Positions 52,319 through 64,000 of a DNA stretch of 64,000 nt are shown piece by piece. Source of the DNA: Bacteroidota bacterium (GTDB lineage Bacteria > Bacteroidota > Bacteroidia > Chitinophagales > LD1); contig CANJZE010000003.1 of assembly GCA_947479455.1 (NCBI GenBank), positions 146,956 to 210,955 of the forward strand, read 5' to 3'. Position numbers and translations under genes: made by a program. The first letter of the stretch is position 1. Every line of letters begins with the position of its first letter. The notes below the pieces were generated by a model. It had not been told where the DNA came from. It ran no database searches and saw nothing but the letters and a program-made list of their open reading frames with translations.

Positions 52319-53458
52319 ATGAAATGGACAGCCCAACCTATTATTCACAAAAACGAATCACGCATAGCTTTGCATTTTGAGTTTAGCAAAGATGCGAATA
52401 TGCGGGTGCGGAATTTGGCCGGTGTCAAGTGGAGCAACTCATTAAAAGCTTGGCACCTCCCGGATAACGAGGAGTATAGAAAACGGTTTAAACTAACACC
52501 TACTACTTTATTACCTGCGGTTAGCGGAATGATACAAAACCAAGAACCGCATCGCGTTCTTAAACCAGTTGAAAAAAAAATTGACCGAGGTCAACTTACG
52601 ACAGTTAGTATAAACAAAGTAGAAGAATTTAAACGCTGGTTGCGAAGTAGAAGGTACAGCGAAAACACCATAAAAACATATACCGAAGCGCTACTAACAT
52701 TTCTAAAATTTCACTATCAAAAACCAATTGCAGAAATCAACAATGACGATGTAATTGCCTTTAACAACGAATTTGTTGTGAAACATAATTTATCTGCCTC
52801 CTATCAAAATCAGGTTGTAAATGCCATTAAACTTTTTTTCAAAAAAATAGAAAACAGTGTGCTGAATATTGAATTGGTTCATCGGCCTAAAAAATACAAT
52901 CCTTTGCCTAAGGTACTAGCGCTAGAGGAAGTTGCCATGATTTTAAACGCTTTGGAAAACATTAAACACAAATGTATGCTCAGCCTGATTTATTCAGCCG
53001 GATTGCGCAGAAGTGAGTTACTTAGTATGAAAATAGGAAGCGTAAACAGTAAGCGAATGGAATTGTTTATTACGCATTCCAAAGGCAGAAAAGATAGAGT
53101 AGTGCCGTTGAGTGAAACGGTTTTAAAGTTGCTGCGCGAATATTATAAAACCTACAAACCCAAAGATTATCTTTTTGAAGGGCAGACAGGCGACCAATAC
53201 AACGAAAGAAGCCTTGCGCTAGTATTGAAGAATGCTTGCGATAAAGCAGGCATTAAGAAAGCGGTGAACTTGCATATGCTTCGACATAGTTACGCTACTC
53301 ACTTGTTAGAAACGGGTACAGATTTGCGTTATATACAAGAGTTACTCGGTCACAAAAGCAGTAGAACTACAGAAATTTATACGCACGTAAGTAATCGCTC
53401 AATTAATAAAATCAAGAGCCCTCTAGATAAACTGGACATAAAAATTAAAGGAGATTGA
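52319..53458 (+). CDS. Tyrosine recombinase, putative integrase of the cassette array
   Basis: A 379-residue site-specific recombinase from ATG 52319. Catalytic residues are visible: R230 (SAGLRRSE), K255/K258 (SKGRKDR), H319-x-x-R322 (HMLRHS), H345 (LLGH) and Y354 (EIYTHV). A SAM-like core-binding domain is at about 98-180. The extra N-terminal domain (1-75; FEFSKDANMRVRNLAGVKWS then LKAWHLP) recalls a HARP-like fold. The IntI-specific insert between boxes I and II is absent, so it is XerC/D-like. It is followed on the same strand, 82 nt after the stop, by the first cassette boundary. Function as the array integrase is inferred. Confidence 0.88.
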   Translation: MKWTAQPIIHKNESRIALHFEFSKDANMRVRNLAGVKWSNSLKAWHLPDNEEYRKRFKLTPTTLLPAVSGMIQNQEPHRVLKPVEKKIDRGQLTTVSINKVEEFKRWLRSRRYSENTIKTYTEALLTFLKFHYQKPIAEINNDDVIAFNNEFVVKHNLSASYQNQVVNAIKLFFKKIENSVLNIELVHRPKKYNPLPKVLALEEVAMILNALENIKHKCMLSLIYSAGLRRSELLSMKIGSVNSKRMELFITHSKGRKDRVVPLSETVLKLLREYYKTYKPKDYLFEGQTGDQYNERSLALVLKNACDKAGIKKAVNLHMLRHSYATHLLETGTDLRYIQELLGHKSSRTTEIYTHVSNRSINKIKSPLDKLDIKIKGD

Positions 53459-53472
53459 AAAACGGAAAAAGT

Positions 53473-53511
53473 TCCTCCTATATTCGTTTTGCTATAAATA
53501 GGAGGAGTTTT
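53473..53511 (+). terminator. Hairpin between the recombinase and attI-like point
   Basis: TCCTCCTAT / ATAGGAGGA stem followed by a run of T. An almost perfect palindrome, AGGAGGTTTAAACTTCCT, follows (53513-53530). Either may terminate the recombinase transcript or serve as a recombinase-binding arm next to the integration point. Confidence 0.55.
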
Positions 53512-53540
53512 TAGGAGGTTTAAACTTCCTCTATAAGTAA

Positions 53541-53549
53541 GTTAGCGGT
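53541..53549 (+). other. attI-like recombination point
   Basis: GTTAGCGGT is the exact reverse complement of R'' of the first attC-like site (ACCGCTAAC, 54283-54291). It lacks the left half of an attC site. This is what an integron attachment site looks like after a cassette has inserted at G^TT. Confidence 0.75.
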
Positions 53550-53575
53550 CATTGTAAATTAAACATCACCTTAAA

Positions 53576-54274
53576 ATGAAAAGCAAAAAAACAATTGAAA
53601 TCTTAGTTATAGTAAATGCAGTAATATTTTGCTTAGCAAGTTGTAATAATAATGTAAAGACTAACGTAGTCAATTCTAAAAATGAAATGAATATTATGAC
53701 AGATGAAAACCTTTCAGAAATTACTATTGGAAAACAAATATGGTTGGGTAATAACTTAAATGTTATTGTATTTAAAAATGGAGACACAATCCCAGAGGCA
53801 AGGACAAATGAAGAGTGGCAAAAAGCTGGGAAGGAAGGGAAACCTGCTTGGTGTTTTTATAATAATGAAAAAGAAACCGCTAAACAATATGGTAAACATT
53901 ATAATTGGTTTGCAGTTAATGACCCAAGAGGTTTAGCACCGGATGGATGGTTAATTCCCTCAGATGAAGATTGGTCAACCTTAGAAGAATTTTTGGGAGG
54001 AGAAAAGATTGCTGGCACTAAAATTAAAAGTTCAAGCAATTGGGTTGAAAATAGAAATGGAACGAACGAAACAAAATTTACTGCTAATCCAAGCGGAGGA
54101 AGAAGTTATGATGGATTATTTGACGGTATTGGTTGGGGTGCTGGTTGGTGGTGCTCTTCAACCTACGATAATGAAAATGCACTATTACGTAGTGTAAGAT
54201 TTGACGACAATGAGATACACCGTGGTATAGTGAGTAAACAATCTGGAATGCCTGTAAGATGTATAAAAAAATAG
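53576..54274 (+). CDS. Cassette 1: FISUMP-domain lipoprotein
   Basis: A 232-residue lipoprotein (lipobox CLASC). The mature part is a Fibrobacter succinogenes major-paralogous domain: GKQIWLGNNLN, GKHYNWFAVNDPRGLAPDGWLIPSDEDW, WWCSSTYDN and SGMPVRCIK. Such domains occur in many secreted Bacteroidota proteins; their role is unclear. The gene starts 35 nt after the attI-like point and ends 9 nt before attC-like site 1, filling the cassette. Confidence 0.85.
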   Translation: MKSKKTIEILVIVNAVIFCLASCNNNVKTNVVNSKNEMNIMTDENLSEITIGKQIWLGNNLNVIVFKNGDTIPEARTNEEWQKAGKEGKPAWCFYNNEKETAKQYGKHYNWFAVNDPRGLAPDGWLIPSDEDWSTLEEFLGGEKIAGTKIKSSSNWVENRNGTNETKFTANPSGGRSYDGLFDGIGWGAGWWCSSTYDNENALLRSVRFDDNEIHRGIVSKQSGMPVRCIKK

Positions 54275-54282
54275 AACAACGA

Positions 54283-54418
54283 ACCGCTAACACGGGTTTG
54301 GCAAAAGTGGCGGTTCAGTTCTCCGCAGACACATTTGTGATTAATCAAAGCTTTGTTCTCCGCATCAACATTTGTGGTGGAAATCGCCACCTTCGCCAAG
54401 CCCGAAACCGTTAGCGGC
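54283..54418 (+). repeat. attC-like site 1
   Basis: 136 nt. R'' ACCGCTAAC, R' GTTAGCGGC at 54410. Inner stem CGGGTTTGGCAAAAGTGGCG pairs with the arm ending at 54404, with A facing AAACC as an asymmetric bulge. Loop motifs TTTGTG, TTTGTT and TTTGTG have their first G at 54337, 54355 and 54374. Confidence 0.85.
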
Positions 54419-54448
54419 AAATTTATAAACACTTCAAACAACAATAAA

Positions 54449-55228
54449 ATGATTGAGAAATTAATCAACCTACCGAGCCCTCTTCAAATTTTGATGGACC
54501 CAGCATCCATAATTGTGATAAGTATCTTTATCGTTCTTATGATTGCCGAAGAGTTATTTCCAGGCAGACCTTTACCAAAAATCAAACACTGGAAAATAAA
54601 AGGGATATTAGCATTTGTAATTTATTTTTTTCTTTCAACCTACCTGCCGATGTTTTGGAATGACACACTTGCGCAATACCAACTCATTGATATGTCATTC
54701 TTGGGTGATTTTGGAGGAGCATTTGTCGCATTATTGATTTATGAATTTGGGGTATACATCTGGCATCGATCAATGCATAAAAGTAATTTTCTATGGCGGA
54801 TATTTCATCAAATGCATCACAGTGCCGAACGTGTAGATACTTATGGTGCTTTCTTTTTTAGCCCAATGGACATGATAGGTTTCACACTCTTAACAAGCCT
54901 TGCATTGGTCGTAGCAGGCGGATTTACTGTTCAAGCAACAATTTATGCGATTTACGGAGCAACATTTCTGGCAGTAATTCAACATGCAAATATTAAGACA
55001 CCGCAATGGATGGGATATATATTTCAAAGACCCGAATCGCATTCTGTTCATCATGCAAAAGGTGTTCATGCATTCAACTATTCCGATCTTCCTCTTTTTG
55101 ATATTATTCTAGGAACTTTCAATAACCCAAAAGAATTTGCAAGTGAAACAGGCTTTTATAAGGGAGCATCTACACGAATTGTGGAAATGATGATGTTTAA
55201 AGATATAAATAATGATAGTAAAACATAG
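54449..55228 (+). CDS. Cassette 2: fatty acid hydroxylase / sterol desaturase family membrane enzyme
   Basis: A 259-residue membrane protein with the three di-iron histidine clusters H106xxxH110 (HRSMH), H120xxH123H124 (HQMHH) and H198xxH201H202 (HSVHH). Several hydrophobic helices surround them. The family hydroxylates or desaturates lipids using O2. The frame is open from 54353, but those 32 extra codons lie inside attC-like site 1, so ATG 54449 (MIEKLINLPS) is the start. Confidence 0.9.
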   Translation: MIEKLINLPSPLQILMDPASIIVISIFIVLMIAEELFPGRPLPKIKHWKIKGILAFVIYFFLSTYLPMFWNDTLAQYQLIDMSFLGDFGGAFVALLIYEFGVYIWHRSMHKSNFLWRIFHQMHHSAERVDTYGAFFFSPMDMIGFTLLTSLALVVAGGFTVQATIYAIYGATFLAVIQHANIKTPQWMGYIFQRPESHSVHHAKGVHAFNYSDLPLFDIILGTFNNPKEFASETGFYKGASTRIVEMMMFKDINNDSKT

Positions 55229-55247
55229 CAGGGAAACAAGTAAATCA

Positions 55248-55383
55248 GCCGCTAACACGGGTTTGGCAAAAGTGGCGGTTCAGTGCCCCGCAGACACATT
55301 TGTGATTGATCAAAGTTTGGTTATCCGCATCAACATTTGTAGTGAAAATCGCCACCTTCGCCAAGCCCGAAACCGTTAGCTGC
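55248..55383 (+). repeat. attC-like site 2
   Basis: 136 nt. R'' GCCGCTAAC, R' GTTAGCTGC at 55375. Nearly identical to site 1 in both arms and loop. R' is a mismatch to its own R'' but an exact complement of R'' of site 3. Confidence 0.85.
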
Positions 55384-55404
55384 AACCTTGACAGACAACA
55401 TATA

Positions 55405-56889
55405 ATGAAAGAAACAATGAGAAAAAGACCAGTATTTAGACCGACAAGAAATCTACTAATAATATTGGGCTTTCTAATTTCAGTAAATAATACCCAAGCA
55501 CAAGCCATTTGGGACAACACATCATTTGTTCATCGCAACGGACAAGAAATACATAATGGACAAAACAATGCCATCAATCTTGATGGAGTAAATATTGGTT
55601 CATGGTTGATGTGGGAAGGTTTGATGTGGGGCGGTGGATTAATTTCTGAAAAGGATATTACCAATAAAATGACATCAGTTATAGGTCCTGTTGCATTCAA
55701 TAATTTCAGAGATTCAGTTTACAAAAACTACATTACTCGAGCAGACATTCAAAGAATTTCAGACGAATGTTATAATGTTGTTCGCATTCCTTTTAATCAT
55801 AATTTATTAGAAGATGATGCAAATCCTTTTGTTTACAAACCTGAAGGATGGGTAATTCTTGACAGCGCTTTGAAATGGTGCGAGGATTATAATGTTTATG
55901 CGGTTTTAGATATGCATGCTGCACCGGGTGGTCAGGCAACACATTTTATAGCAGACCCGGATTCAATTGATTTATGGAACTCACCCGTGAATAAAAACAG
56001 AACGATTCAACTCTGGAAGGCAATTGCAAGCAGATATCAAAACAGAGGAATTGTTGCCGCTTACGATTTATTAAACGAACCAAATATTTGGTGGTGGCCC
56101 GATTTAGTTAATTTATATGATAATATAATTGACACCATTCGAACGGTTGACAACAACCATATGATAATGCTTGAAGGAAATAATTACGCTCAGGACTTCT
56201 CAATGTTTACATCTTTACCTGATCCAAACATCTGTTTCCAATTTCATTATTACACCTTCTTTTTCAGTGCTCCTAATATTCCTGCCTGGACTGCACTTTC
56301 CAACACTTTAAATGTTCCAATTTGGTGTGGCGAATGGGGTGAAGATACGTTAGGTGGAATGCAGAATAAATTAACTAACATTATAAGGAATCCTGCCTAT
56401 AAAATTAGTGGACAAGCATTCTGGACATGGAAAACTGTAACAGTAGGCTTTCAGAATCCTCATAGTCTTAACGTAAACAATCCTACCGACTGGAACAATA
56501 CAATGTTGTGGGTAACTTATAATTCACCGATAGTAACTGCCTTGGAAATGCAAAACGGCATTGATAGTTTTATTGTCAACATGAAATTGCAAAATTGTGT
56601 TGTAGACACTGGTGTTTTTAATATGTTAAACTTGTGTTCAGTTACAGGCATTCAGAACATCGAAGAATTAAAATATTTAAATGTTTATCCAAACCCATTT
56701 ACTTCCTCAATCAACATAGAGGGCAAATTCGAAAACGAATATTATGAACTATTAAATTCAACAGGACAAATTATTTGGACAGGCCAACAAATCAACAATC
56801 AAGATTTTTCTTCACTGATAGACGGTTTGTATTTTTTGAGAATATATAATGGTAATTCTACACAGACGACAAAACTTATTAAGAATTAA
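55405..56889 (+). CDS. Cassette 3: secreted GH5-type glycoside hydrolase with T9SS tail
   Basis: A 494-residue secreted protein (signal LLIILGFLISVNNTQAQA). The catalytic domain is GH5/cellulase-like: GVNIGSWLMWEG, VVRIPFNHNLLED, LDMHAAPGGQATH, the acid/base Glu in YDLLNEPN and the nucleophile Glu in WCGEWGED. The C-terminal 80 residues (YLNVYPNPFTSSINIEG to TTKLIKN) are a type-A T9SS sorting domain. The frame opens inside attC-like site 2, so ATG 55405 is chosen over upstream Met. Likely a cell-surface beta-glucan-type hydrolase. Confidence 0.9.
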   Translation: MKETMRKRPVFRPTRNLLIILGFLISVNNTQAQAIWDNTSFVHRNGQEIHNGQNNAINLDGVNIGSWLMWEGLMWGGGLISEKDITNKMTSVIGPVAFNNFRDSVYKNYITRADIQRISDECYNVVRIPFNHNLLEDDANPFVYKPEGWVILDSALKWCEDYNVYAVLDMHAAPGGQATHFIADPDSIDLWNSPVNKNRTIQLWKAIASRYQNRGIVAAYDLLNEPNIWWWPDLVNLYDNIIDTIRTVDNNHMIMLEGNNYAQDFSMFTSLPDPNICFQFHYYTFFFSAPNIPAWTALSNTLNVPIWCGEWGEDTLGGMQNKLTNIIRNPAYKISGQAFWTWKTVTVGFQNPHSLNVNNPTDWNNTMLWVTYNSPIVTALEMQNGIDSFIVNMKLQNCVVDTGVFNMLNLCSVTGIQNIEELKYLNVYPNPFTSSINIEGKFENEYYELLNSTGQIIWTGQQINNQDFSSLIDGLYFLRIYNGNSTQTTKLIKN

Positions 56890-56912
56890 AATCAATGACC
56901 GAAAGAAAGGCA

Positions 56913-57048
56913 GCAGCTAACAGCACCTACAAGAAATTGGCGGTTCAGTGGTTAAATGAAGCTTTGTGCTTCGTATCAAGTTCAGTGGTGGCAGACAGTT
57001 TAGTGCTTCGTTATCGCCAACTTCTTGTAGCTGCAAACCGTTAGCGGC
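56913..57048 (+). repeat. attC-like site 3
   Basis: 136 nt. R'' GCAGCTAAC, R' GTTAGCGGC at 57040. The inner stem GCACCTACAAGAAATTGGCG has a sequence different from sites 1-2 but is paired in the same positions, i.e. compensatory change. Confidence 0.85.
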
Positions 57049-57311
57049 AACCTTTGACGCAAATTTTTGACAAGGTTGTGTAGGGTAGTCGCTTAAAGAC
57101 AAAAGACAAATACAAGGGCGAAGCCCATTGGCTATGCTTCAGCAAAATAAAAGAGATGATGCTCGTCTATTTTTAAACTTGAATCATCCCTTTTATTTTG
57201 CGCTGACGCACAAACAGCCGAACAGCCAGTGCAGCAACTATTAAATTTGAATTGTTACTTTGTTTTCGTCTTTATATTCACTTAAAAAATAAATCACTTT
57301 AAAAACAAAGC
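57049..57311 (+). other. Non-coding start of cassette 4 with a long hairpin
   Basis: No ORF seen. AGCAAAATAAAAGAGATGAT (57141-57160) pairs with ATCATCCCTTTTATTTTGCGCT (57183-57204) with one mismatch and one bulge. It may be a terminator for upstream cassettes or part of the nuclease leader. Confidence 0.5.
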
Positions 57312-58358
57312 ATGAAGTATTATAAGGAAGGTAAAAACTGGTGGAGAGATAATCGTTATCATTTTATGAGCAAAATGAATTTGGAAAGTGGCATTACTGA
57401 ATTTGGTAGTGCCAACTCAAAAGGAAGTCCATATTATCATATCCTTTCACCAGCTGACCAGAAGAATAAGTTGCACAACTTTATTGGCGAGCAAGAAATT
57501 TATAATCATGTAATAGAACGCTTCAAAACAAAAGCAGGTGATTTAAAAAGAGTGCTCACCAACACAGTAGCTTCACAACCGTGTTGCTTTAATTTATTTA
57601 CACCGCTTAGAAATAGATTGCCTTTAGCAAGCAAACTATTTAGCCATCTTCTTCAAAAAGAAATTACGGTGTCAGAATTGATAATAGAGTTTACACCAGG
57701 ACAGTATAACGGTTCTGACGAAACTATTGGCGACCAATCCGCACAAGGTGGGACAGATTCTGATGTTGCAGTCTTCTATACTACTGCTGACAGTAAGAAA
57801 GGTGTTTTGCTTATAGAGTTCAAGTATATCGAGTATGAATTTTCAGTTTGCAGTTCATACAAAAACAAAAATATTTCAGACATTTGTGACACTCCTGACT
57901 TCTATAAGAAACTTATAGCTCCTAATATTAACTCGTCAGCAAAACAATTTGATTGCGGTTACTTAAAGTATCAGAATTGGCGGCTTCTTGAAGACAGTGC
58001 AGCTTTCAATGCCGACAAAATCAAGACAGCAAATAGATGTCCGTTCAGATTTTCTCTTAATCAATTATGGCGAAACATGCTGCTTGCTGAGAAGGTTGCA
58101 AAAGCAAGACACCTTGACGAGTTTGGTTTTTGGGTAATTAACCCCAAAGAAAATTCATTCGCATTGCAAAATTCAGGTGAGAATGTGAAAGATGAGTTTC
58201 TTAATATCCTGTCAGACAAAGGCAAATCTTTATTCAAGGTCTTAGAGTTAGACAATGATGTTGTAAAACCATTAGAGCAACTTTCAACTGAAGAATGGAC
58301 AGATGAATGGCTCCGCAAATTTCGTCAACGATACTTAACCAATACAGATTTTCATTGA
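57312..58358 (+). CDS. Cassette 4: putative PD-(D/E)XK nuclease (PGN_0703-like)
   Basis: A 348-residue cytoplasmic protein. The core GGTDSDVAVF (D149/D151), then LLIEFKYIEYEF (E169-x-K171), fits a PD-(D/E)XK active site; IGEQEIYNHV could supply the upstream Glu. Overall it resembles restriction-endonuclease-like PGN_0703 proteins known from Bacteroidota. No methyltransferase is adjacent, so a standard restriction-modification role is unproven; defence is inference. Confidence 0.6.
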   Translation: MKYYKEGKNWWRDNRYHFMSKMNLESGITEFGSANSKGSPYYHILSPADQKNKLHNFIGEQEIYNHVIERFKTKAGDLKRVLTNTVASQPCCFNLFTPLRNRLPLASKLFSHLLQKEITVSELIIEFTPGQYNGSDETIGDQSAQGGTDSDVAVFYTTADSKKGVLLIEFKYIEYEFSVCSSYKNKNISDICDTPDFYKKLIAPNINSSAKQFDCGYLKYQNWRLLEDSAAFNADKIKTANRCPFRFSLNQLWRNMLLAEKVAKARHLDEFGFWVINPKENSFALQNSGENVKDEFLNILSDKGKSLFKVLELDNDVVKPLEQLSTEEWTDEWLRKFRQRYLTNTDFH

Positions 58359-58365
58359 CTCTGCA

Positions 58366-58417
58366 AAATACATTTATGCAAATGCACTTCCGTTGTGTTT
58401 TGCTGTATTTATCTTTC
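58366..58417 (+). repeat. 52-nt dispersed repeat, copy A (inside cassette 4)
   Basis: AAATACATTTATGCAAATGC through TTTATCTTTC matches copy B (60430-60481) at about 42 of 52 positions by eye. It lies between the nuclease and nfeD genes. Confidence 0.55.
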
Positions 58418-58475
58418 GTAAGAAAATTATTAGAACCATTTTATATCTTGGCTACATAAAAAAGAAGTAAAAAAT

Positions 58476-58925
58476 ATGGACTTTTCAGTTTGGCATTTTT
58501 GGATTATTGCTGCGGTTCTTCTTTTTATTGTAGAAATTTTCACACCTACATTTTTAACTGCCTCACTTGCTATCGGATGTATTGCTTCGGGAATTGTTTC
58601 CTATTTCGGTTTCGATATAAAAATACAGCTAATCGCATTTTCCATTGGAACTCTTACAAGCTTTTTTGGCGTAAGACCTTTTATGTTAAAGTTTGCTCAC
58701 AAAAAAAGTGGCAACGTAAAAACTAATGTTGATGCTTTAGTTGGCAAAGTTGGTAGGGTGGACGTTACAATAGACCACTCTCAAAATCAAGGTAGAGTAA
58801 TAGTTGAAGGGGACGACTGGAAAGCGGAAACTGAAAACAATGAAGTGATTCGCGCAGGAGAAAAGGTTGAAGTATTAAAAGTAAATAGCACAACTTTAAT
58901 TGTAAAACCAATAACTAAAAATTAA
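58476..58925 (+). CDS. Cassette 4: NfeD-like membrane protein
   Basis: A 149-residue protein with two or three hydrophobic segments (HFWIIAAVLLFIVEIFTPTF and ALAIGCIASGIVSYF) and a C-terminal OB-fold-like domain (ALVGKVGRVDVTID, then GRVIVEGDDWKAET), the NfeDC architecture. It ends 4 nt before an SPFH gene; the NfeD-SPFH pair is a classic operon involved in membrane microdomains. Confidence 0.9.
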   Translation: MDFSVWHFWIIAAVLLFIVEIFTPTFLTASLAIGCIASGIVSYFGFDIKIQLIAFSIGTLTSFFGVRPFMLKFAHKKSGNVKTNVDALVGKVGRVDVTIDHSQNQGRVIVEGDDWKAETENNEVIRAGEKVEVLKVNSTTLIVKPITKN

Positions 58926-58929
58926 AAAT

Positions 58930-59985
58930 ATGGGCTTCTTAATCGTCTTAGGACTAATTGCAATTTTTGTAATTGTCTTTGCTGCATTTGGATTTCAGAT
59001 TGTTCAACAATCAGAAACAATCGTAATTGAACGGCTCGGCAAATACAGTCGCACGTTGCCAACCGGTATAAATATTATCTGGCCCATTGTTGATAGACCG
59101 AGAGAAATAATTTGGCGATTTGTTAAGCAAGACATTAACCTTGATGGAAGAAGTTCTATTTCTTTTAGGGCAGTGACAAAAATAGATTTAAGAGAAACTG
59201 TTTATGAGTTTCCTAAACAGGATGTTATTACAAAAGATAATGTTGGAACAGAAATTAACGCAATTATTTATTTCCAAATTACTGACCCAGTTAAAGCGGT
59301 ATATGAAATTTCAAATCTTCCCGATGCGATTGAAAAGCTAACTCAAACGACATTGAGAAATGTGATTGGCGAGTTGGATTTAGACCAAACTCTTACATCA
59401 AGGGATACAATTAACGGTAAGCTAAGGATAGTTTTAGATGAAGCAGGACACAAGTGGGGCGTTAAGGTAAATAGAGTTGAATTGCAGGATATAAATCCTC
59501 CCCAAGAAATCAGAGCTGCGATGGAAAAACAAATGAAAGCAGAAAGAGATAAACGAGCAAAAATTTTAGAGGCAGAAGGAGACAAGCAATCTCAAATTTT
59601 ACAATCAGAAGGATTGAGGCAAGCTAAAATAAATAGTGCCGAAGGGGAAAAGCAATATCAAATTTTGCAATCAGAAGCTTTAAGGCAATCTAAAATAAAT
59701 AATGCCGAAGGGGATAAACAATCACAAATATTAAAAGCAGAGGGGGAAGCACAAGCAAGGATAAGAACATCAGAGGGGGAAGCGGAAGCAATCCAAAAAA
59801 TTACTCAAGCAATTTCAGCAACCAAAAGCGACCCTGTAAATTACCTTGTTGCAATCCGCTACATTGATAAGTTAGGAGAAATGGTAAGCGGTAAAGACAA
59901 CAAAGTTATTTATATGCCTTATGAAGCCACTGGGATTTTAAGTTCAATAGGTGGCATTAAGGACTTACTTACTGCACAAAAATAA
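58930..59985 (+). CDS. Cassette 4: SPFH/stomatin-type protein
   Basis: A 351-residue membrane-anchored protein (LGLIAIFVIVFAAFGF). The SPFH domain is clear: VQQSETIVIERLGKYSRTLP, GINIIWPIVD, FPKQDVITKDNV, VELQDINPP and EIRAAMEKQMKAERDKRA. The following coiled coil holds three 22-residue repeats (residues 216-281; AEGDKQSQILQSEGLRQAKI type), i.e. 66-nt tandem DNA repeats at 59575-59772. Related to QmcA/YbbK; a partner of NfeD. Confidence 0.93.
   Translation: MGFLIVLGLIAIFVIVFAAFGFQIVQQSETIVIERLGKYSRTLPTGINIIWPIVDRPREIIWRFVKQDINLDGRSSISFRAVTKIDLRETVYEFPKQDVITKDNVGTEINAIIYFQITDPVKAVYEISNLPDAIEKLTQTTLRNVIGELDLDQTLTSRDTINGKLRIVLDEAGHKWGVKVNRVELQDINPPQEIRAAMEKQMKAERDKRAKILEAEGDKQSQILQSEGLRQAKINSAEGEKQYQILQSEALRQSKINNAEGDKQSQILKAEGEAQARIRTSEGEAEAIQKITQAISATKSDPVNYLVAIRYIDKLGEMVSGKDNKVIYMPYEATGILSSIGGIKDLLTAQK
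59575..59772 (+). repeat. Three 66-bp tandem repeats in the SPFH coiled coil
   Basis: Units 59575-59640, 59641-59706 and 59707-59772 all start GAAGG(A/G)GA(C/A/T)AA and encode 22-residue heptad-like units. They are in frame, so unit gain or loss changes coiled-coil length only. Confidence 0.85.
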
Positions 59986-60022
59986 ATCCCATAAACAGCA
60001 TCCGTTTACAGGACTTTCTTGC

Positions 60023-60355
60023 TTAGAATCTTCCACGAGTTTCAAATTCATCAACTTCTTTTTTGATTCGCTCAAACTCTTGCTCTTTCTGGTAAACAAA
60101 ATGTTTGATCCGTAGCAATAACTCATCCTCAGGCAATGCTTCAAAATCCTGTATGAACAATAACCTATTCCGAAAAAGCCAATATACATTCGGGCCTTCA
60201 GGGTTATGTATCGAAGAAGGTGTAGGTTTTTTCTTTTGCTGTTCAAATTCATCACATTCCAGTGCAATTGCTACAGACCTTGCATTGCTTCCACTATCAA
60301 TTCTAATCTCTATTGACCCTTCATCTGAAATCCTTCCATCTTCTTTTATTTTCAT
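60023..60355 (-). CDS. Cassette 4: antisense hypothetical protein
   Basis: A 110-residue acidic protein on the strand opposite to all other cassette genes. It has VYWLFRNRLLFIQDFEALPEDELLLRIKHFV followed by a charged helix (EQEFERIKKEVDEF). Codon use and helix pattern look real, not a shadow. No family recognised. It ends 38 nt from the SPFH stop (convergent). Confidence 0.6.
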   Translation of the reverse strand: MKIKEDGRISDEGSIEIRIDSGSNARSVAIALECDEFEQQKKKPTPSSIHNPEGPNVYWLFRNRLLFIQDFEALPEDELLLRIKHFVYQKEQEFERIKKEVDEFETRGRF

Positions 60356-60429
60356 AGCAAATATTTAGTCACTAAGTTTTTCTTTAAAATGAAAATACAT
60401 TTTATTTTCTGTTACAGACAACTCCAGCC

Positions 60430-60540
60430 AAATACATCCACGCAAATGCGCTCCCATTTTGTTTTGCTCTTTTTATTTTTCAATTGGATTTAAAACAAAA
60501 AGAGAGCGCATTGCCACGCAGGGGTTTCGCCTTTCATTTG
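60430..60540 (+). repeat. Dispersed repeat copy B with hairpin
   Basis: Copy B of the 52-nt repeat is at 60430-60481. Its ATGCGCTC/TTTTGTTTT part can pair with AAAACAAAA/GAGCGCAT at about 60493-60511. The remaining gap to attC-like site 4 has no ORF. Confidence 0.5.
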
Positions 60541-60592
60541 ACAGTTACGCGCTTCACTGACAAACAAGAAAGTTTCTCTTTTATTTTTTGCG

Positions 60593-60614
60593 TGATGTCC
60601 ACTGGTGGACATCA
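60593..60614. promoter_or_regulatory. Perfect 10-bp inverted repeat before attC-like site 4
   Basis: TGATGTCCAC-TG-GTGGACATCA, a perfect palindrome with a 2-nt centre, ends 8 nt before R'' of site 4. An operator or stem-loop is possible; function unknown. Confidence 0.45.
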
Positions 60615-60622
60615 GTAAGGCA

Positions 60623-60758
60623 GCCGCTAACAAGGCGTTTGCGTAATGCGGGGCGAAGTCTTTAAGCGTAGTTTTGTTTTTCTTTTTTAGTTTAGTTTTC
60701 GGTGGACAAGTAGTGCTTCTTAAACCCGCACTACGCAAACCCCCGAAACGTTACCTGC
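60623..60758 (+). repeat. attC-like site 4
   Basis: 136 nt. R'' GCCGCTAAC, R' GTTACCTGC at 60750. Inner stem GTTTGCGTAATGCGGG pairs with CCCGCACTACGCAAAC. The loop sequence is unrelated to sites 1-3 yet the total length is identical. Confidence 0.82.
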
Positions 60759-60830
60759 AAGCGTAGTAGACGACTCGACAACAATTAAACCTATGAAGAT
60801 TTGGAGCATCATACATTAAAATTAGAAAAC

Positions 60831-62201
60831 ATGATGAAAAATAAAATACTTACTACGATTTCGTTATTGCTTTTTGGAATAACGATTTATGCTCAACAAG
60901 AAAACCAATCTTGCGGAACTTCAGTACCTAGTGAAATGTGGGAAAATGAGTTTCAAAAATTAATTTCGGAATACAAAACTAACCCAAAAAGCCAAAAGCA
61001 ATCTTCAACAGTTTATACTATTCCAATTATATTTCATGTAATACATAGCGGACAGCCTATTGGTAATTTTCCTAATATTTCACAAGGTCAAATAAATTCT
61101 CAAATAACTGTTTTAAATCAAGACTTTAGTGGAAATGGATTTAATTCTTCCAATTATCCTTCTAATGCTTTTGTAAATTGGGTAATCACGCAATCATTAC
61201 CGTCTGCTAATACTGATAGTAACGGTAGGGTAAAAATAGCGGACGTTGGAATTCAATTTTGTTTAGCAACAAAAGATACTAACGGTAATTTATTACCCGA
61301 ACCAGGAATCAATAGAATTAATTACCTGTCTTTGAATTTGCCAAATCCGAGTAGTTATTCTACTCAAGCTACCATGAAGTCCTATCTTGACAATATTCTT
61401 AAGCCTCAGACCATTTGGGACGTAACTAAATATCTCAATGTTTGGATTACAGATAAAAACAGTGCTCTAAACTATACCGGAGTATCATCGGTCCCTCCTT
61501 TAAGTGGCTTATTGGGCGTGCCTAATAATTCGACCGATACAACCGATGGTATTTGGTGTTTTGCGAAAGTAATTGGTTCTAACAATTTATTTCCTACTGG
61601 TATTTATGGTTCCCCATTGGTTGAGGGCAGAACCCTTACACACGAAGTTGGTCATTATTTAGGACTCAGGCATATTTGGGGTGATGGGTCTTGTGCTACT
61701 GACTATTGTGATGATACGCCACCAGCAGCATCAGAAAATACTGGGGTACCATCATCTTATCCATTAAATGTTGGTTCGTGTAGTAGTCCGTCAAACTCGC
61801 CAGATGGAGAAATGTTTATGAATTTTATGGATTATCCTCATGACCCTTACAAGTATATGTTTACTGCTGACCAAGCTACAAGAATGCAGACTGCCATGCT
61901 AAACAGTCCATACAGAAATCAATTAGGAACTCATGGTTTGTGTTCGGCTCCTCTTGGACTAAATAATTTAAATTTAAATGATAATATTTCAATTTATCCA
62001 AATCCAGCTAAGACAGAACTAAATATAAATGTTTCCCAAAACGACATAAATGAACTTTCAATAAGCAACTTATTTGGACAAGTTCTAATCATATCACAAA
62101 ATCAAAACCGTATTGACATTTCTAATTTAACCAATGGCATATATATTTTAGCAATTACACAAGGACAAAATAAATACACGAAAAAATTCATCAAAGAATG
62201 A
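60831..62201 (+). CDS. Cassette 5: secreted M43 (cytophagalysin/pappalysin) metalloprotease with T9SS tail
   Basis: A 456-residue secreted protease from ATG 60831 (signal ILTTISLLLFGITIYAQ). The zinc motif HEVGHYLGLRHIWGD (HExxHxxGxxHxxGD) and Met-turn-like MNFMDYPHD define family M43. YTIPIIFHVIHSG and QITVLNQDFSG near the start are typical. The last 75 residues (ISIYPNPAKTELNINVS to YTKKFIKE) are a type-A T9SS sorting domain, so it is exported across the outer membrane. Confidence 0.93.
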   Translation: MMKNKILTTISLLLFGITIYAQQENQSCGTSVPSEMWENEFQKLISEYKTNPKSQKQSSTVYTIPIIFHVIHSGQPIGNFPNISQGQINSQITVLNQDFSGNGFNSSNYPSNAFVNWVITQSLPSANTDSNGRVKIADVGIQFCLATKDTNGNLLPEPGINRINYLSLNLPNPSSYSTQATMKSYLDNILKPQTIWDVTKYLNVWITDKNSALNYTGVSSVPPLSGLLGVPNNSTDTTDGIWCFAKVIGSNNLFPTGIYGSPLVEGRTLTHEVGHYLGLRHIWGDGSCATDYCDDTPPAASENTGVPSSYPLNVGSCSSPSNSPDGEMFMNFMDYPHDPYKYMFTADQATRMQTAMLNSPYRNQLGTHGLCSAPLGLNNLNLNDNISIYPNPAKTELNINVSQNDINELSISNLFGQVLIISQNQNRIDISNLTNGIYILAITQGQNKYTKKFIKE

Positions 62202-62221
62202 TAACAACGGAGAAAACGCCA

Positions 62222-62357
62222 GCAGGTAACAGCACATTGGCAATAGGCGGGGTTTCGTCTCCGCTTGACAGTTTTGTGGTAACCGAAAGTTTTGTGCTCC
62301 GAATAAAAATTTGTGGTGAAAAGCCCGCCCATCGCCAATCTGAAAAACGTTATAGCC
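62222..62357 (+). repeat. attC-like site 5
   Basis: 136 nt. R'' GCAGGTAAC, R' GTTATAGCC at 62349: the two do not pair beyond AAC/GTT. R'' instead pairs perfectly with R' of site 4, and R' with R'' of site 6. Inner stem ATTGGCAATAGGCGGG. Loop TTTGTG motifs have their first G at 62276, 62294 and 62313. Confidence 0.85.
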
Positions 62358-62395
62358 AATGATAAAAAGACGACAACGAACAAAATAAATTGACA

Positions 62396-62896
62396 ATGGA
62401 AGAAAGACCAACAATAAAATTAGAATTCACAACAGCCGACAAAACATTTGAAATAATTGGTTGGCTTTTAATTATTTCTGTTTGGGGCTTAACAATTACA
62501 AACTATGCAAACCTGCCTGAAACTATTCCGACACATTATAATGGAGCAGGACAAGCGGACGGATTTGGCGGAAAGGCGACTATTTTGACTTTGCCACTAA
62601 TAGCAACAGTTCTATTTGTTGGACTGACAATCCTAAATAAGTTTCCTCACATTTTTAATTATCCGACCAACATAACACAAGACAACGCATTAAGGCAATA
62701 TACAAATGCAACAAGAATGATTAGATATTTGAAACTCATTATTGTTGTCATTTTCGGACTAATTGCATTCAAGACAATTCAAAATGCAAACGGACAAGCG
62801 GACGGACTTGGAATTTGGTTTTTACCAATGACATTAGGACTAATTTTCATTCCTTTGATATATTTTGTAGTAAAATCATTTAAAGCGACAAAATAA
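62396..62896 (+). CDS. Cassette 6: DUF1648 membrane protein
   Basis: A 166-residue protein from ATG 62396 with four hydrophobic helices. The DUF1648 signature LPETIPTHYNGAGQADGFGGK lies between helices 1 and 2, as in SdpI-related immunity-type membrane proteins. The family suggests a role in resistance to a membrane-acting peptide, but this is inference. The gene fills the cassette between sites 5 and 6. Confidence 0.8.
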   Translation: MEERPTIKLEFTTADKTFEIIGWLLIISVWGLTITNYANLPETIPTHYNGAGQADGFGGKATILTLPLIATVLFVGLTILNKFPHIFNYPTNITQDNALRQYTNATRMIRYLKLIIVVIFGLIAFKTIQNANGQADGLGIWFLPMTLGLIFIPLIYFVVKSFKATK

Positions 62897-62916
62897 TGAC
62901 GAAGAAAGAAAGCACT

Positions 62917-63052
62917 GGCTATAACAGCCGTTTTGCAAAAGCGGGGGTTTCGTGCTTCTATGAAAGTGAAGTGCAAAATTCAAGCTTTGTGCATCTAATG
63001 AAGTTTAGTGCTAAAAATCCCCGCCTTCGCAAAGCGGCAAACCGTTAGCGGC
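62917..63052 (+). repeat. attC-like site 6
   Basis: 136 nt. R'' GGCTATAAC, R' GTTAGCGGC at 63044. Inner stem GCCGTTTTGCAAAAGCGGGG pairs with the arm starting at 63019 (CCCCGCCTTCGC). Predicts that R'' of the next site, beyond the window, is GCCGCTAAC. Confidence 0.85.
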
Positions 63053-63105
63053 AACCCGTGGGGACAGTGCTAACTTTGAACTGACTGCATAAAACGAACT
63101 GACAA

Positions 63106-64000
63106 ATGAGTTTAACATCAACACTATCTGACAAGAACAATCAACCACTTCGGGACAAATTCAAAACAGAATTTTTGCGACCAGAGTTTAAGTTGCAAGC
63201 AGAGTTAAAAGCCCCACCGCTGACAACAAACTATACGATTGTCGGGACAGCGTTTGATTATCTAATGCGTTTTTATTTGCAACGACTCAACAAAGACACT
63301 TTTGAAGATAGAGGCAATTGGGTTGCTGACAATGCTTATGAAAGTTTGACAGAGCATACTTTGAAAAGACAAGGGAAAGAAACGGCAACAGGTTTTCGCA
63401 AAGACAAAATATATAAAACGAAAGACCTTCTAAAAATTATTACCGACCAATATTCACAGACCAAGAAAAATTATTCTAAGTTTTTAGCAGACGGCATCAT
63501 TACAGACGAACTTGTAGCCAACACACTTTACTTAGCGAAACTTGATGTTTATTCAAGAGCAGGAATCATTGACCAAAACTTTGACTTTCATAATCCAGAC
63601 GACATTACTGACATTAAAGCAATGCTATCATTAGTGGACAACGAAAAGTTTACTGCAAAAAGTAAATGCTACTTCAATCCAACTTTCGGTGGAGGTTCTG
63701 CAATCGTTAACGGTGCAGATGCTGACTTAATTATTGACAATATTTTAATTGACATCAAGGCGACAAAGAATTTAAAACTTGAAAGAGACCACATAAATCA
63801 AACTTTAGGTTACTACATTTTATCTCTTATCGGTGGAGTAAATCTCAAACCATTTGCAAGACCGATTGAACACATCGGAATTTATTTCGCAAGGCACGGT
63901 GAACTTTGGACAGTTCCTATTTCATCGTTTGGCGACAGTAAAAAGTTTTCTGACTTTAAAGATTGGTTCATATCGTATGTAAAGCCAAAAGAAAAAACTT
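63106..64000 (+). CDS. Cassette 7: putative RecB-like PD-(D/E)XK nuclease (partial)
   Basis: Open from ATG 63106 to the window end (298 codons, no stop yet). The segment GADADLIIDNILIDIKATKN gives D207, D216-x-K218, and INQTLGYY gives Q232xxxY236. Together these form the RecB-type PD-(D/E)XK active site seen in Cas4/RecB/AddB-like nucleases. The N-terminal half is helical with no recognised domain. A defence or DNA-processing role is inference. Confidence 0.6.
   Translation, partial: MSLTSTLSDKNNQPLRDKFKTEFLRPEFKLQAELKAPPLTTNYTIVGTAFDYLMRFYLQRLNKDTFEDRGNWVADNAYESLTEHTLKRQGKETATGFRKDKIYKTKDLLKIITDQYSQTKKNYSKFLADGIITDELVANTLYLAKLDVYSRAGIIDQNFDFHNPDDITDIKAMLSLVDNEKFTAKSKCYFNPTFGGGSAIVNGADADLIIDNILIDIKATKNLKLERDHINQTLGYYILSLIGGVNLKPFARPIEHIGIYFARHGELWTVPISSFGDSKKFSDFKDWFISYVKPKEKT

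Follow-up and report, generated by a model that had tools for sequence, protein, structure and literature searches.

Integron-like gene cassettes following a tyrosine recombinase other than IntI in Bacteroidota

A stretch of 64,000 nucleotides from a Bacteroidota bacterium (Chitinophagales, LD1; assembly GCA_947479455.1, contig CANJZE010000003.1, positions 146,956 to 210,955, forward strand; hereafter the window) was analyzed. Toward its end lies a tyrosine recombinase gene followed, on its strand, by an attI-like region and a row of gene cassettes, each with a hairpin site of about 136 nt. The features, in window coordinates, are as follows.

52319..53458 (+), tyrosine recombinase of the cassette system (379 aa; PF00589, PF13495), without the IntI patch-III insert
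52319..52519 (+), N-terminal domain of the recombinase (about 67 aa, beta-beta-alpha-beta-beta-alpha), HARP-like by weak evidence
53472..53481 (+), attI-like region, inverted repeat arm 1 (TTCCTCCTAT)
53498..53506 (-), attI-like region, inverted repeat arm 2 (ATAGGAGGA)
53525..53543 (+), attI-like core, a partial third copy of the repeat (CTTCCTCTATAAGTAA) ending in GTT, with G at 53541
53542..54410 (+), cassette 1 (FISUMP-domain protein, 53576-54274)
54283..54418 (+), site s1
54411..55375 (+), cassette 2 (fatty acid hydroxylase family, ORF to 55228)
55248..55383 (+), site s2
55376..57040 (+), cassette 3 (GH5 glycosidase with type IX secretion tail, ORF to 56889)
56913..57048 (+), site s3
57041..60750 (+), cassette 4, composite: leader 57040-57227, PD-(D/E)XK nuclease 57312-58358, NfeD 58476-58925, SPFH/band 7 58930-59985, ORF 60023-60355 (-), tail 60416-60750
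60623..60758 (+), site s4
60751..62349 (+), cassette 5 (M43 metalloprotease with type IX secretion tail, ORF to 62201)
62222..62357 (+), site s5
62350..63044 (+), cassette 6 (DUF1648 membrane protein, 62390-62896)
62916..63052 (+), site s6
63045..64000 (+), cassette 7 (ORF from 63106 to beyond the window; PADLOC PDC-S61 1.3e-13, RTasPDDEXK 5.5e-7), continuing to window-equivalent 64403

The original prediction of an integron-like array, made from the sequence alone, was confirmed and extended. The G of GTT was found at 53541, 54410, 55375, 57040, 60750, 62349 and 63044, so that the cassette limits it had placed at G^TT are exact, and the array continues past the window with three more sites to the end of the contig (hereafter C3; window-equivalent 66372). 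By contrast, its claim that one gene usually almost fills each interval is not general, since cassette 4 holds at least three genes plus a minus-strand ORF. Of eight proteins analyzed with PADLOC, seven from the C3 array and one from contig C20 of this genome, only that of cassette 7 matched. An Rfam search gave no family at gathering scores in the window, and three weak hits, two to eukaryotic RNAs and one to a plasmid antisense RNA, were taken as chance.

To test whether the hairpins could be due to chance, 34 sites were aligned. In these, 17 of 17 stem pairs showed changes on both sides, and 93.9% of cells paired, against 61.1% in shuffled and 30.5-40.3% in slid alignments. By our count, 13 of about 526 paired cells are G-T, as for pairing at DNA level. 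In the wider set of 136 sites, 130 folded, and all 130 had more unpaired bases on the GTT side. The cores depart from the integron consensus RYYYAAC/GTTRRRY, as originally predicted: 0 of the 10 right cores of the C3 array fit GTTRRRY, and in the wider set 11 of 136 right and 6 of 136 left cores fit.

The first bases of each cassette (GTTR...) were found to be complementary to the left arm of the site at its own far end, a rule that was not part of the original prediction. This was observed in 9 of 9 cassettes of the C3 array, an outcome that 24 of 362,880 orderings of the nine starts would also give; five of the nine have their own start as the single best match, and the other four carry the commonest core. 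Over 27 loci, excluding pairs in which an AAC or GTT could not be read, the rule held in 91 of 100 pairs, with 9 breaking it, against 15 of 100 for the adjacent core and a shuffled mean of 9.4 (maximum 21 of 5,000). The same rule held 3/3 in locus L123, a canonical IntI array. This positive control is small, because a pattern-and-fold scan for canonical attC sites in 13 loci with IntI-like recombinases found a row of several only in L123. The matching entry core was found by exact 9-mer within 400 bp of the recombinase in 24 of 28 loci (shuffled mean 1.5, maximum 7 of 5,000), loci with divergent or broken recombinases (L026, L041, L044, L045, L069, L084) having been set aside, and in two loci added later, that is, in 26 of 30. 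A layout of the attI-like region similar to that of the window was seen in loci L027, L030, L048 and L159.

Homology breaks were then examined in related loci. Homology begins at the G of GTT in L155, L160, L162, L159 and L033. Two Chryseobacterium plasmids recorded as circular and complete (L192 and L193) share the platform at 90% identity and part at the last T of its GTT, with different cassettes at the same entry site. In one of them, a near-identical 172-nt unit without an annotated gene of its own sits at the GTT of attI and of three sites; the first-cassette pair of L192 matches exactly once the 172-nt unit at attI is passed. This unit could, however, be an element that merely targets GTT. 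In L154 and L155 the gene is shared up to the left arm only and the site body differs, which plain G^TT crossover does not explain.

The recombinase lacks the IntI insert. Between the Arg I region and HxLRH there are 90 residues in the window's protein and 89-95 in 53 of 53 Bacteroidota rows, against 132-137 in 12 of 12 IntI rows. It scored 204 bits, in two stretches, to TIGR02249, for which the cut-off is 265 bits. In phylogenetic trees the 12 IntI rows formed a clade at 100 without it, although a sister relation of IntI with the window's clade is not rejected (p-AU 0.057). L039 (same contig as L069), L044, L048, L057, L087, L094, L099, L103, L106, L126, L128 and one host recombinase (L133) were dropped from the first tree.

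The distribution of the sites was investigated with covariance model R2, which found them in 147 of 296 genomes sampled over the phylum. How often R2 fires in unrelated phyla rests only on the non-Bacteroidota loci among 90 sources searched, where L104, an IntI locus, gave one hit at E 0.0028 and L074 (Spirochaetota) one at 0.096; R2 found nothing in L123. Of the 107 hits in these sources, 83 were outside the window's own genome at E 0.0097 or better, and 76 of the 83 lie downstream on the recombinase's strand. A blastn search of site s1 against plasmids and phages gave no match, but R2 found sites on three plasmids, so blastn with one site is too weak a test. In 14 finished genomes, 114 of 150 sites (of 287 found) have a same-strand neighbour within 10 kb, 87 of 87 neighbouring pairs within 10 kb share a strand, and in genome G171 the recombinase is followed by 16 sites on its strand. 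By contrast, 10 of 17 sites in genome G332 (of 88 found) and 5 of 5 in genome G073 (of 18 found) stand alone. Of two observations that the original prediction had named as speaking against it, a lack of indels at the boundaries was not what was seen, whereas singly scattered sites were seen in part. Furthermore, by our count of 119 genomes, 33 with sites have no recombinase at the threshold used and 11 with it have no detected sites, and true IntI co-occurs in 3 of the 14 finished genomes, so IntI could act on some sites there.

Combined, these results are best explained by a chromosomal integron-like cassette platform of Bacteroidota (probability about 0.87), although no recombination was observed. 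It is inferred that this recombinase captures circular cassettes by joining a folded cassette site to the attI-like site just downstream of its own gene, cutting G^TT, and excises cassettes by recombining two sites. Each cassette carries one hairpin site whose outer arms pair fully only in the circle, because after insertion the GTTR half stays at the cassette's front. It is likewise inferred that new cassettes enter next to the recombinase, that the site acts as a single-stranded hairpin whose one-sided bulge marks the strand, and that the N-terminal domain takes the role of the I2 helix in IntI.

An ordinary integron with a diverged IntI and odd-looking attC sites is unlikely, even though the best solved match of the recombinase model in Foldseek is IntI4 (2a3v) and the trees do not reject a grouping with IntI. 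The spacing from the Arg I region to HxLRH, the TIGR02249 score, the separate IntI clade and the noncanonical cores speak against it, as does the finding of IntI over the cut-off in only 1 of 119 relatives, one that has no such sites at E 1e-6. Still less likely are transposon-like units, in which each gene is flanked by its own short terminal inverted repeats (GTTRNNNN...NNNNYAAC) moved by a transposase and the recombinase is a neighbour. Own-start complementarity by itself is also an inverted repeat at the unit's ends, and the match up to the left arm only in L154 and L155 fits this view. However, the repeats differ from unit to unit, which a transposase that reads its ends would hardly allow, a conserved covarying hairpin separates the units, the first unit starts next to the recombinase in 26 of 30 loci, and none of the nine cassette proteins put to Pfam matched a transposase family.

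Movement of cassettes by the host XerC/XerD pair, as in pdif modules, is similarly improbable. The recombinase passes the NCBIfam XerA model by a small margin (222.6 against 220 bits), but host Xer-type genes lie elsewhere and branch apart, the array starts at this recombinase's gene, and pdif modules probably lack a 136-nt hairpin, although dif-like sites were not searched for. Dispersed structured repeats (REP-like or terminator hairpins) without a mobile role would account for the solitary sites of G332 and G073, but are very doubtful in view of the shared strand of neighbouring pairs, the own-start and entry-site rules and the exact homology breaks.

No description of this system was found in the open-licence literature searched, which did not include preprints. 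IntegronFinder work reports for Bacteroidetes proper only In0 elements at first and later one complete integron, in Salinibacter (PMC9024848). If the sites work as inferred, a large gene-sharing pool in the phylum has been missed by IntI-based counting. I2 has been stated to be necessary for cassette capture and to be found in no other protein, direct proof of its role in single-strand recombination being missing because its deletion kills the enzyme (PMC7790495); a natural cassette system without that insert makes the question directly testable. It is as likely as not that this is a second, phylum-wide kind of integron, in which capture at folded single-stranded sites works without the I2 helix by means of an N-terminal structure-binding (HARP-like) domain; hairpin-cassette capture would then either have arisen twice or have preceded I2.

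The N-terminal domain may resemble the HARP domain (PF07443; SMARCAL1, 4o66) in motif and size. PF07443 hits 3 of 21 homologues (best 6.8e-7), and L074 is over the gathering score, but the window's own domain does not match PF07443, and comparison with 4o66 gave E 0.37 by profile and E 3.3 by Foldseek; the relationship is suggestive in sequence, not significant in structure, and unproven. With XerA/XerH-type single tyrosine recombinases and the 'integron-like' subgroup of tyrosine recombinases (PMC8138268), the recombinase shares a catalytic core without the insert, which that paper notes is not fully conserved in its subgroup; here, however, the recombinase is tied to cassette arrays and an attI-like site and carries an extra N-terminal domain. 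With integrons (IntI, attI, attC cassettes), including sedentary chromosomal integrons, the system shares an array beside a fixed entry site next to the integrase gene, one hairpin per cassette, the G^TT break point, arms that pair fully only in the circle, diverse cargo, arrays without integrase and plasmid-borne copies. It differs from them in a recombinase outside the IntI clade and without the patch-III insert, in cores of GTTR plus largely free complementary bases rather than GTTRRRY, in a one-sided spacer bulge AAA(A/C)C before GTT, in sites mostly near 136 nt, in an attI with an inverted repeat plus a third copy at the core, and in an integrase mostly co-directional with the array.

The DNA under study lies at positions 146956-210955 of contig C3, in a 3.76 Mb draft genome of an uncultured Bacteroidota assembled in 70 contigs, where C3 ends at window-equivalent 66372. 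The recombinase gene and the six structured repeats near 136 nt that follow it were found as described in the original prediction, and the G of GTT falls exactly one base before each of the cassette limits that it had cut at G^TT. Three more sites follow on C3. The features of this array referred to below are as follows.

52319-53458, recombinase
52319-52519, N-terminal domain of the recombinase
57040-57227, leader of cassette 4
60416-60750, tail of cassette 4
55306-56889, cassette protein with a type IX secretion tail
60801-62201, cassette protein with a type IX secretion tail
64245, 64961 and 66076 (window-equivalent), three further sites on C3

The two proteins with type IX secretion tails indicate that the cassettes include enzymes likely to be secreted. 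Covariance model R1 found 18 matches with E below 1e-7 in the genome. Six of the seven contigs holding them have one within 1.2 kb of an end, as expected if a repeat-rich array broke the assembly. On contig C30 (locus L048, 7932-8372), a degraded recombinase, with 52% identity and five stops, is followed by an attI-like stretch 82% like that of the window and by four sites, representing a decayed second copy of the platform. On contig C29 (locus L011, 37274-37404), only the right half of a site is well matched and it is joined to unrelated DNA, pointing to an old rearrangement or an assembly error.

The structure of the sites was analyzed in an alignment of 34 sites from this and related genomes. 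All 17 stem pairs showed changes on both sides and 93.9% of cells were paired, as compared to 61.1% in shuffled and 30.5-40.3% in slid alignments, and none of 500 shuffles reached the covariation score, although the alignment was fitted to the structure, which in turn was derived from 11 sites of the genome itself. G-T pairs were few, 13 of about 526 by our count, which fits pairing at the DNA level better than an RNA. Around the stem, an A follows the left AAC in 136 of 136 sites, and mostly AAA(A/C)C precedes GTT. Of the 136 sites, 130 folded with a readable outer pair using RNA parameters, and all 130 have more unpaired bases on the GTT side, most often 5 against 1. This one-sided bulge could mark the strand, as extrahelical bases probably do in attC. 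When the six sites of the window, s1 to s6, were folded as DNA, the - strand was matched by 0, 5, 0, 11, 23 and 1 of 200 shuffles, respectively, and the + strand by 1, 19, 8, 59, 38 and 3.

In an integron, the outer arms of attC would be expected to pair fully only in the free circle, because the GTT half ends up at the front of the cassette, and this was observed in 3 of 3 cases in a canonical IntI array (locus L123). Here, all nine cassettes on C3 have a start that matches their own far-end arm over 9-10 bases, while the core next to that arm matches over 4-9. Five of the nine have their own start as the single best match, whereas the other four carry the commonest core; 24 of 362,880 orderings would do as well. 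Over 27 loci, 91 of 100 consecutive site pairs matched at 5 or 6 of 6 free positions. By contrast, the adjacent core did so in 15, and 5,000 shuffles gave a mean of 9.4 and a maximum of 21. Nine pairs failed, in one of which (L048) a weak site lies between. The longest gap between two matching sites was 9 kb, in locus L165.

The entry site was sought as the exact 9-mer complementary to the left arm of the first site. It was found within 400 bp of the end of the recombinase match in 24 of 28 loci, 19 of them at 47-146 bp, whereas shuffling gave 1.5 on average and 7 at most. Two loci tested later also have it, at 276 and 279 bp. Upstream of it, in loci L009, L027, L030, L048 and L159, we read an inverted repeat and a third copy that runs into the core, for example TGGCACAT...ATGTGCCA...TGGCACATATAAACAAGTTA in L027, with other letters in other genomes. 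Of 83 sites counted outside the genome of the window, 76 lie downstream on the strand of the recombinase, six lie upstream on the other strand, one of them at an IntI locus, and one is a half-site at a contig end.

Blast matches of the array to other genomes begin exactly at the G of GTT at 57040 in loci L033, L159 and L162, at 60750 in L160 and at 62349 in L155. In L033 that shared start is the first core after the recombinase, and in L159, L160 and L162 it follows an attI-like sequence. The leader and tail of cassette 4 recur with different spacing between them, hence probably with other cargo, in contig C30 of the same genome (L048) and in genomes G007 (L159) and G001 (L033), as if cargo were swapped inside a fixed frame. 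Genes of cassettes 5 and 6 are shared with other genomes (L154 5018-5545; L155 3428-4128) up to the left arm of the site, but the site body is of another type, so that site bodies seem to be exchanged apart from genes.

The clearest case is that of plasmids NZ_CP041688.1 (Chryseobacterium sp. SNU WT5; locus L192) and NZ_CP094530.1 (C. oryzae ADR-1), both recorded as circular and complete, which carry recombinases 51% and 49% like that of the window. Their platforms are 89.7% identical over 3.2 kb and the alignment ends at the last T of the attI GTT, after which the genes differ. The first plasmid has six sites at E below 1e-9 and a weak one, all downstream on the same strand, and the second has one site. 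Interestingly, in the first plasmid a near-identical, hairpin-rich unit of 172 nt starts at the GTT of the attI and of three sites (15149, 17244, 19625 and 22694). Behind it, the start of the first cassette matches its own arm exactly, and the other readable starts match at 5 of 6 or, apart from the first base, fully. Repeated insertion of one unit at G^TT speaks for recent activity, though an element that targets GTT is not excluded. An IS110 transposase and a group II intron also lie in this array. In a Flagellimonas plasmid (L194 7908-8753), two sites flank a dihydrofolate reductase family gene upstream of and opposite to a recombinase, with erm(F) between them and it.

Probable catalytic positions of the recombinase are kept in the aligned homologues. 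The IntI model TIGR02249 matched at 204 bits, under its cut-off of 265, in two stretches, while the XerA model was passed narrowly, at 222.6 against 220. Between two anchors on either side of the IntI insert there are 90 residues in the recombinase of the window, 89-95 in 53 of 53 Bacteroidota rows of the alignment and 132-137 in 12 of 12 IntI rows. In trees of 94 and 66 recombinases, IntI is a clade at 100 that excludes the group of the window; a common clade of the two is 24 log units worse but not rejected (p-AU 0.057). The predicted structure (mean pLDDT 83.9, with the stretch containing the tyrosine under 50) is closest by Foldseek to IntI4 2a3v and then to XerA. The extra N-terminal domain may resemble HARP: PF07443 was detected in 3 of 21 homologues, with a best value of 6.8e-7, and over the gathering score in L074, a Spirochaetota MAG, whereas 4o66 topped the profile search at E 0.37 and appeared at E 3.3 by fold. 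However, none of this is significant for the domain of the window itself. HARP domains are described as important for fork reversal (PMC4666394). Recombinases of genomes G017 and G001 (L031 and L033) have an N-terminal domain very like that of the window but branch in another clade, and hence this domain looks swapped.

Sites at E 1e-6 or better were found in 77 of 119 genomes of a set of relatives, and in 147 of 296 genomes drawn over the phylum, corresponding to 85 of 140 genera. IntI over the cut-off was present in 1 of the 119, and that genome has no such sites at that threshold. By our count, 44 of 55 genomes with the recombinase have sites, against 33 of 64 without it at the threshold used. 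In 14 finished genomes, chosen because they have sites, 114 of 150 listed sites (of 287 found) have a same-strand neighbour within 10 kb, and 87 of 87 neighbouring pairs share a strand. Finished genome G171 has 16 listed sites downstream of its recombinase over about 37 kb, and G173 has six, plus two arrays without a recombinase. By contrast, 10 of 17 listed sites in G332, out of 88 found, and 5 of 5 in G073 stand alone, the nearest listed site in G332 being 40 kb from the recombinase. Four of the 14 have no recombinase at E 1e-60, and three hold true IntI.

No description of such a system was found in the literature searched (including PMC9024848, PMC9668308, PMC8618304, PMC8138268, PMC4666394, PMC8352920 and PMC7790495), which was restricted to open-licence papers without preprints and left out most subscription papers, so that an earlier description cannot be excluded. 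Clade-specific attC models in PMC8352920 cover 11 taxa, and its main text never names Bacteroidetes. On the features that could be tested in sequence, the system works like an integron, and it fails the features that define IntI integrons. We therefore regard it as an integron-like system without IntI, in which the recombination reaction itself is inferred, and not as a member of the IntI integrons.
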